From Ruegeria atlantica (GTDB lineage: Bacteria; Pseudomonadota; Alphaproteobacteria; Rhodobacterales; Rhodobacteraceae), in NCBI RefSeq assembly GCF_001458195.1, contig NZ_CYPU01000070.1:1-64000 (forward strand): a stretch of DNA of 64,000 nucleotides. Reading direction: 5' to 3'. The position numbers and the translations under genes were made by a program. Shown here one piece after another: positions 41,366 through 43,283 of the stretch. The notes beneath the pieces were generated by a model. That model ran no database searches. It was not told the origin of the DNA and was given only the letters and a program-made list of their open reading frames with translations. Numbering within the stretch: position 1 is the first letter of the stretch; each line of letters starts with the position of its first letter.

Positions 41366-42271
41366 CTAAATCCGGCTTCCCTTGGCCACAGGCCAGCCCC
41401 GCAGAAAGGTTTCCTTATACTGTGCGCCTTTGCCCGCCCGTTGCAGGCGCAACAGATCAACGGCACCCTCGCCGCAAGCTATTGTCAAGGCATCGTCCAG
41501 AGCTTCGCCGGGTACGCCCTGCCCCTCGGCCAGACGCGACGCCAGTAGTTTCACGCGGTCTCCGTCAATCTCGGTCCAGGCACCCGGGAACGGGGACAGA
41601 CCGCGGATCTGCCGATCGACCTCGGCTGCGGGCCGGGACCAGTCAATCCGTGCCTCTGATTTGTCGATCTTAGCGGCATAGGTCACACCGACCTCGGGCT
41701 GCGGCTCGGGCGTCAGATCCGGCAGGTCATGCAAAGCCTCAACGATCAGTTTGGAGCCCATTATCGACAGCCGGTCATGCAACTGGTCGGTGGTTTCCTC
41801 GATCCCGATATCAGTTGCTTCGCGCATAAGAACCGGGCCTGTGTCCAACCCGGCCTCCATCTGCATGATGCAGATACCGGTTTGCGCATCGCCGGACATG
41901 ATGGCGCGATGGATCGGGGCCGCCCCGCGCCAGCGCGGCAACAGGCTGGCATGGATATTCAGACATCCCTGGGCAGGCGCGTCCAGAATGTGCTGCGGTA
42001 GGATCAGGCCATAAGCGACCACCACAGCCACATCTGCGTTCAGTGCAGCAAAGGCATCCTGTTCATCTGACGATTTCAGAGACACCGGATGGCGGACAGT
42101 CAGGCCTAACGCTTCGGCCCGTGCGTGAACCGGTGTCGGTCTGTCCTTTTTGCCCCGACCAGCCGGGCGCGGGGGCTGGCAATACACGGCGACGATATCA
42201 TGCCCAGCTTCGACCAGCGCATCCAGAACCGGAACCGAAAAGTCGGGCGTACCCATGAATACAATGCGCAT
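41366..42271 (-). CDS. fmt: Methionyl-tRNA formyltransferase
   Basis: Fmt formylates initiator Met-tRNA. The 301-residue protein has the N10-formyl-tetrahydrofolate domain with [15 protein letters not shown], the catalytic segment [20 protein letters not shown], and a C-terminal tRNA-binding barrel. It is the third gene of def - def-like - fmt, with two bases between it and the def-like gene. Confidence 0.97.
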
Positions 42272-42273
42272 CT

Positions 42274-42768
42274 CTACCCCAGCTTTTTGGCTTTGCGCAG
42301 CAGCATGTCCCGTTTGACCTTGCTGAGCCGGTCGAAATACATCTTCCCGTTCAGATGGTCGATCTGGTGCTGTACGCTTGTGGCCTCGATCCCGACAAAG
42401 TCGCGGCGATCCACCATCCCCTGCTCATTCAGAAACTTGACCGTCACCGCGCGTGGGCGCTTCACCTTGGCCGAAACACCAGGCAGGTTCGGGCTCGCCT
42501 CATCATGTTCGCGCAATTCGATTGAGCTGTGCAGGATTTCAGGGTTGGCCAGACGCACAGCCTTACCCCGTTTGGTCGAGCCGTCCACCACAGCCAGCCG
42601 CAACATGACGCCGATCTGCGGCGCGGCAAGGCCAACACCGGGCATCGCTTCCATCGTGTCGATCATGTCGTCCCAGATGGCACGGATTTCATCGGTAATC
42701 TCGGCGACGTCCTCCGCCTTGGTGCGCAGGCGTTTATCGGGCCATGGCAGGCAGGTGCGAGCGGTCAT
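42274..42768 (-). CDS. Deformylase-like protein lacking catalytic residues
   Basis: The 164-residue protein is a paralogue of the adjacent deformylase. Motif I ([10 protein letters not shown]) is intact, but motif II, EGCLS in active enzymes, reads EASPN, so the metal-binding Cys is replaced (Ser92 in alignment). Motif III HEIDH reads HQIDH, so the catalytic Glu is Gln135. The two metal His residues (134, 138) remain. A canonical deformylase reaction is therefore unlikely. Conservation of the fold and of coupling (four-base overlap with def, two bases to fmt) argues for a retained function, perhaps nascent-chain binding, which is inference. Confidence 0.85.
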
Positions 42769-43283
42769 GCGCGGGCTTGCTCGCGCTTTAGTTTCTGCAT
42801 CTTTCGCGTGATCATCTGCCGTTTCAGCGGCTTGAGATAGTCGATGAACAGCTTGCCGTTCAAATGGTCGATCTCATGCTGAACACAGGTCGCCCACAGG
42901 CCGTCGAATGTTTCCTGTTGCAAGTTGCCATCCTGGTCGATCCACGTGACATCAACCACTTTGGGGCGCGTGACTTCGGCGAATTGCTCGGGGATCGACA
43001 GGCAGCCTTCCTCGTAGACATTGGTCTCATCGGACGAGGCGATGACCTCGGGGTTGAACATGATCAGCGGACGCGGGGCTTCGCCCTCTTCCTTAATGCA
43101 GTCCAACACGATCAACCGATCCAGCACGCCGATCTGAGGCGCGGCCAGACCAACGCCAGGCGCGTCATACATCGTCTCCAGCATGTCGTCGGCCAGCTTG
43201 CGCAGCTCGTCGCTGATATCTGCCACGGGCGCGCAGACCTTTTTCAGGCGGGGGTCGGGATGGATCAGGATATTACGTTTCAT
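42765..43283 (-). CDS. def: Peptide deformylase
   Basis: Def removes the formyl group from the N-terminal Met of new proteins. The 172-residue protein has all three motifs: [20 protein letters not shown] (metal Cys94) and QHEIDHLNGK (His136, Glu137, His140). It heads the operon with its degenerate paralogue and fmt. Confidence 0.97.
   Translation of the reverse strand: MKRNILIHPDPRLKKVCAPVADISDELRKLADDMLETMYDAPGVGLAAPQIGVLDRLIVLDCIKEEGEAPRPLIMFNPEVIASSDETNVYEEGCLSIPEQFAEVTRPKVVDVTWIDQDGNLQQETFDGLWATCVQHEIDHLNGKLFIDYLKPLKRQMITRKMQKLKREQARA

Follow-up and report, generated by a model that had tools for sequence, protein, structure and literature searches.

Deformylation is essential and is usually seen as the single job of one enzyme. 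Deformylases of type 1 are mostly known as monomers; Glu133 (E. coli numbering) is the general base of deformylase, and the backbone NH of Leu91 helps to hold the formyl oxygen, an NH that a proline does not have. In docking work the ligand was hydrogen-bonded to the Leu91 backbone and to Gln50 (PMC4964514), and in Salmonella Cys90 is reported to be needed for activity, with serine at a second cysteine (Cys130, probably the position of Cys129) halving it (PMC7683392). Def of E. coli, of type 1B, contacts uL22 through L149, K150, R153 and K157, and 23S rRNA through K160 and R163 (PMC12690207). Accessory deformylases of type 3 have been described from S. aureus, S. pneumoniae, trypanosomatids and archaea as inactive or weakly active (PMC12690207; PMC5591237); they are paralogues with altered motifs, and those of S. 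aureus and S. pneumoniae occur beside an active copy. An accessory deformylase of type 1b, Def2 of V. cholerae, is active, lies on chromosome 2 away from def-fmt, and is described with a changed pattern of ribosome contacts that includes Met153 (PMC12690207). Lamberioux et al. found clustered deformylase genes in 98.1% of Rhodobacterales reference species, with three genes in 62.5% of these, and called the rationale of this clustering "elusive" (Lamberioux et al., 2025; PMC12690207). The gene characterized here is one member of that Rhodobacterales cluster.

The window, a stretch of 64,000 nucleotides from Ruegeria atlantica (contig NZ_CYPU01000070.1), carries the gene at 42274..42768 on the minus strand, between def and fmt. 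The def gene (42765..43283, minus strand) encodes a canonical peptide deformylase with EGCLSIP and HEIDH motifs, and the methionyl-tRNA formyltransferase gene fmt (41366..42271, minus strand) matches TIGR00460 with 279 bits. The gene of interest runs from ATG to TAG over 164 codons for amino acids with no internal stop; its start codon overlaps the def stop by 4 nt (42765..42768, minus strand) and its own stop lies 2 bases from the fmt ATG, which agrees with the description in the initial annotation of an open frame coupled to both neighbors. The same 4-nt overlap with an upstream deformylase stop was found in 120 of 175 loci measured, taking as start codon the in-frame start closest to the aligned N-terminus. 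Its product matches Pfam Pep_deformylase (PF01327) along its length with 141.4 bits against a cut-off of 22.8, and a PF01327 search of the source genome, whose nearest relatives are Ruegeria (98% identity to Ruegeria sp. A3M17), recovered only this gene and def. We refer to canonical Def proteins as class A, to orthologs of the window gene as class C, and to a third paralog, encoded between A and C in other genomes, as class B. The product also scores 129.2 bits against the NCBIfam equivalog TIGR00079, "peptide deformylase" (cut-off 103.95), a threshold passed by all five other class C proteins scanned. Class C proteins are therefore probably annotated as active enzymes, and deformylase tallies for these genomes are probably inflated by a protein that lacks the activity.

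By profile and by fold the class C protein belongs to the deformylase family. An AlphaFold2 model built with 44 class C rows reached a pLDDT of 94.6 and a pTM of 0.90, and superposed on the solved deformylase 5j46 with a TM-score of 0.92 and on E. coli 1lru with a Z-score of 26.7 and an rmsd of 1.4 over 161 residues. The C-terminal tail is predicted to fold as an alpha-helix (residues 150-163; 42280..42321, minus strand), as in type 1 enzymes. Motif I, GVGLAAPQ (residues 44-51; 42616..42639, minus strand), is intact. Motif II reads EASPNLP (residues 90-96; 42481..42501, minus strand), with the metal ligand Cys90 replaced by Ser92 and Leu91 by Pro93, and motif III reads HQIDH (residues 134-138; 42355..42369, minus strand), with the catalytic Glu133 replaced by Gln135 and both histidines kept. 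Neither the metal cysteine of EGCLS nor the glutamate of HExxH that mark an active deformylase is present. The initial annotation had recognized a deformylase paralog beside an intact Def, with motif I kept, EASPN for EGCLS and HQIDH for HEIDH, all of which is borne out; the two broken motifs it counted are in fact part of four replaced active-site positions, Cys129 having become Ser131 as well. Seven sites are fixed in class C for residues used neither by class A nor by 27 other alphaproteobacterial deformylases (W32, M42, A59, S92, P93, S131, and Q135). Four of the seven are these active-site positions and M42 sits two residues ahead of motif I, so that the fixed changes cluster at the catalytic center. 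On this evidence class C very likely lacks ordinary deformylase activity.

Class C thus shares with E. coli Def the predicted fold, motif I, both metal-binding histidines, the C-terminal helix and the cluster with fmt, and differs from it in the replacement of the metal cysteine, Leu91, Cys129, and Glu133. The changes described for type 3 proteins fall in motifs I and II (PMC12690207; PMC5591237), whereas in class C motifs II and III are changed and the Gly and Gln of motif I are kept in 97 of 97 orthologs, so that class C fits that description at motif II only. Class C further differs from type 3 as described in its place within the def-fmt cluster, in having type 1 enzymes as its best solved relatives, and in its predicted C-terminal helix. 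Like class C, Def2 of V. cholerae has Met153 in its ribosome-contact pattern, but it is active and encoded away from def-fmt (PMC12690207). Inactive accessory deformylases are already known elsewhere; within open-license full text we found no report of a fixed pseudoenzyme among the deformylases of Rhodobacterales, and the sections and passages of PMC12690207 considered here mention neither a fixed pseudoenzyme member of the cluster nor the loss of the ribosome helix in another.

When 120 genomes of the same family were searched (117 with a match) and the sequences sorted into the three classes, a full class C ortholog was found in 97, the source genome included, and a fragment at a contig end in one more. 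Class C was not detected in 22 genomes. A single Def is present in 18 of these and A together with B in one, and no deformylase was detected in the other three, which are 82, 91, and 83% complete; given these 22, class C is dispensable in some lineages. Genomes without class C had a median size of 3.45 Mb (n = 18) against 3.9 Mb for those with it (n = 98, fragment included), a difference in rounded sizes that was not significant (p = 0.053). All 97 full orthologs carry Ser for Cys90, Pro for Leu91, Ser for Cys129, and Gln for Glu133, as do all 80 class C proteins from named genomes; the named loci were chosen from many for their high similarity to the query, and over the stretch compared four of the 80 are identical to one of the 97. 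Thus each of the 177 ortholog rows read is altered at these four positions, and the alignment of orthologs proposed by the initial annotation as a check turned up no row retaining either the Cys or the Glu. Every one of the 97 class C rows keeps Gly45, Gln50 (Gln51 of motif I in window numbering), Glu88, His132, and His136, and the cysteine, leucine, and glutamate are intact in 105 of 105 class A and 51 of 51 class B rows. Two rows of one genome (L103) labeled as class C had been set aside, one being class B and the other a contig-end fragment of C. In an order-level sample, which repeats some of the family genomes and in which all 149 genomes carry the window's own family code, class C was present in 146 by score, motifs not being read individually; the other three have one deformylase each.

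A wider alphaproteobacterial family, such as one including the "deformylase-like" proteins of Rhizobiales, was not supported. Among 237 alphaproteobacterial genomes from outside the family the best match scored 191.1 bits, against 280.3-308.4 bits for three family genomes in the same search, and the 27 best outside matches, the only ones read, all have the cysteine, leucine, and glutamate. Nor did a plasmid origin find support: 716 plasmid records matched, only one with more than 60% identity, a 1.58-Mb Pseudorhodobacter replicon, and mobility is unsupported. One record titled Nocardioides marinus (L158; JAHVJD010000009.1) holds a class C gene 87% identical to the query; a Rhodobacteraceae genome (L142) gives exactly the same class scores, and the title is probably wrong. 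In Pseudophaeobacter leonis 306 (L193, about 1466-2000), def is split over two frames with B and C open, perhaps through a sequencing error.

In a tree of 149 rows made by a quick method, the 41 class C rows formed one clade (SH-aLRT 100) and the 30 class B rows another (SH-aLRT 98), indicating that class C is of single origin within the sampled Rhodobacteraceae. The class C stem is 1.17 changes per site long, and mean pairwise distances within classes, from 100 random pairs each, were 0.96 for C, 0.75 for A, and 2.49 for B. A long stem followed by modest divergence is the pattern of a burst of change and then constraint. The C stem joins single-deformylase lineages with weak support (50 at that node). 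Single-copy Defs are scattered among the Defs of genomes that carry class C (13 changes over the tree, of which starred branches force at least 4), which suggests that the single-deformylase lineages may have lost class C repeatedly. Across 17 Ruegeria-like genomes the median dN/dS (Nei-Gojobori) was 0.075 for class C and 0.081 for Def, and across the 80 named genomes it was 0.199 for C, 0.167 for Def, and 0.44 for B; the estimates use pairs with dS between 0.15 and 1.2 and rows longer than 140 amino acids, and the pairs are not independent and have a median dS near 0.9. Of 163 alignment columns in the family, 49 reach 95% identity in class C against 65 in Def, and 25 against 46 reach 99%. Across the family class C is hence somewhat less constrained than Def; the dead copy is nonetheless held nearly as firmly as Def and changes far more slowly than B, a paralog with an apparently intact catalytic site.

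A pseudogene in neutral decay, or a sequencing error, can in practice be dismissed as an account of this gene. The loss of catalytic residues is all that speaks for it; the frame is open, dN/dS in near relatives is as low as that of Def, and by score the gene was detected in 146 of the 149 genomes in the order sample. Moreover, decay would give different residues in different lineages, so the identical replacements in 97 of 97 orthologs argue against it. Class C is almost certainly conserved and under selection, judging from its sequences. The proposal in the initial annotation of a conserved pseudoenzyme, rather than a pseudogene, is thus well supported by substitutions fixed in both samples and by purifying selection close to that on Def, and the dN/dS comparison it had called for gave no sign of neutral decay.

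In all 97 class C rows, positions 150, 157, and 160 (E. coli numbering) are Lys or Arg and position 151 is Arg, and the modeled C-terminal helix corresponds to the one by which E. coli Def binds the ribosome. Two of the E. coli contacts are not matched: at the position of Arg153, 91% of class C proteins have Met, as do 81% of class A and 81% of the other alphaproteobacterial deformylases, and the position of Arg163 is a gap or varied in class C and absent from the window protein. The tail carries a net charge of +6.6 in class C, against +8.1 in class A and +7.0 in the 27 other alphaproteobacterial proteins; in class B it is -0.8. Class B (for example L006:1010-1501, with copies in 51 other family genomes) lies between def and C, carries Arg at the second position of motif I in 51 of 51 rows (GRGLAAPQ type), evolves fast, and has lost the basic helix. 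It was detected in at least 52 of the 120 family genomes, having been sought only in fetched stretches and with BLAST, and none was found in the source genome. Class C accompanies it in 51 of the 52, once as a fragment; with one genome having B and no C, 47 having C and no detected B, and 18 having neither, the association is significant by Fisher's test (p = 9e-5, ignoring phylogeny). Class C has thus retained the likely docking helix but not the catalytic residues, whereas B has retained the catalytic residues but not the basic helix. In one class B protein, from an uncultured Pelagimonas (L190), the Cys and HExxH motifs are also lost (ENALSVP and QVMDH), and B can accordingly decay while C stays intact.

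Among the three roles suggested by the initial annotation, namely binding of nascent N-termini, of the ribosome exit or of Def itself, a role at the ribosome exit fits best and receives indirect support from the conserved basic helix. Binding of nascent N-termini would be compatible with the conservation of the pocket residues. Excess of either Def or methionine aminopeptidase lowers the binding of the other to the ribosome (reviewed in PMC8185961), and given this competition a third occupant could pace both. Class C would dock in the manner of E. coli Def, through its basic helix and close to uL22/uL32; once docked, it would occupy the site or hold the formyl-Met end of the chain without cutting, and would thereby pace how readily Def and methionine aminopeptidase reach the nascent chain. 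We tentatively favor, at somewhat less than even odds, such a role for class C at the ribosome exit, where it would be a competitor that does not cut, or a reader of formyl-Met chains. Counting against it, the basic helix could be kept merely for stability or for general RNA binding. A fuller scheme is conceivable, but we regard it as unlikely: Def would perform bulk deformylation on the ribosome, C, with its docking helix and formyl-Met pocket, would serve as a brake or reader slowing the deformylation of certain nascent chains, and B, in genomes that have it, would work off the ribosome on other formylated substrates. If true, such a division among up to three paralogs would amount to a pseudoenzyme layer controlling N-terminal processing in most of one bacterial order.

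Other roles would account for parts of the same evidence. The conservation of the pocket residues Gly45, Gln50, Glu88, His132, and His136 in every ortholog, with the catalytic residues specifically replaced, and the common gene cluster with def and fmt would also suit a reader or trap away from the ribosome, whose inactive pocket would take up formyl-Met peptides or released N-termini and leave them uncut, either to protect them or to sense formylation, with the helix purely structural. We think this rather unlikely: with the cysteine lost and Leu91 changed to Pro, metal binding and the backbone hydrogen bond should weaken and affinity should drop, and the presence of the basic helix in C and not in B would be left unexplained. 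The 4-nt overlap with an upstream deformylase and the near-constant company that B keeps with C could instead point to a partner subunit that pairs with Def, or with B in genomes that encode it, and tunes the stability, metal loading or activity of its partner, as some pseudoenzymes do. This, too, seems improbable, type 1 deformylases being mostly known as monomers. The correlation of distances between A and C controlling for fmt (0.39) was not above that between C and fmt controlling for A (0.42; 90 genomes), and that between B and C was 0.07 (44 genomes); the distances did not separate the readings, and the suggested binding to Def gained no specific support. It is highly improbable that class C serves as a decoy for natural deformylase inhibitors such as actinonin, which hold the metal that class C would be expected to bind poorly. 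Such inhibitors have nevertheless been proposed to select accessory deformylases (PMC12690207). Finally, class C could still be an enzyme, a hydrolase with altered chemistry based on Ser, two His, and Gln, acting on formyl-peptides or another substrate and perhaps with another metal. Both metal-binding histidines are unchanged in 97 of 97 rows, the replacements are fixed rather than random, and in T. brucei, type 3 deformylases whose motifs are altered have been reported as active (PMC12690207). We hold this to be a poor prospect, since the metal cysteine, the catalytic glutamate, and Leu91 are lost jointly and Cys90 alone was required in Salmonella (PMC7683392).

That an inactive copy is under nearly the same constraint as the live enzyme, in one gene cluster with it across most of a bacterial order, implies an unrecognized regulatory or binding role early in protein maturation. 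Class C also supplies part of the reason for the clustering of two or three deformylase genes in Rhodobacterales, which the 2025 description of the cluster did not settle (PMC12690207). A separate feature was seen in the canonical Def of these bacteria, where position 97 (Arg97 in E. coli, Phe101 in the window Def) is Tyr in 74% and Phe in 26% of the family sample, and likewise in the 27 other alphaproteobacterial proteins. Among V. cholerae deformylases, Arg97Tyr has been linked to lower susceptibility to actinonin (PMC12690207), and the bacteria studied here may thus have a naturally reduced sensitivity to it.
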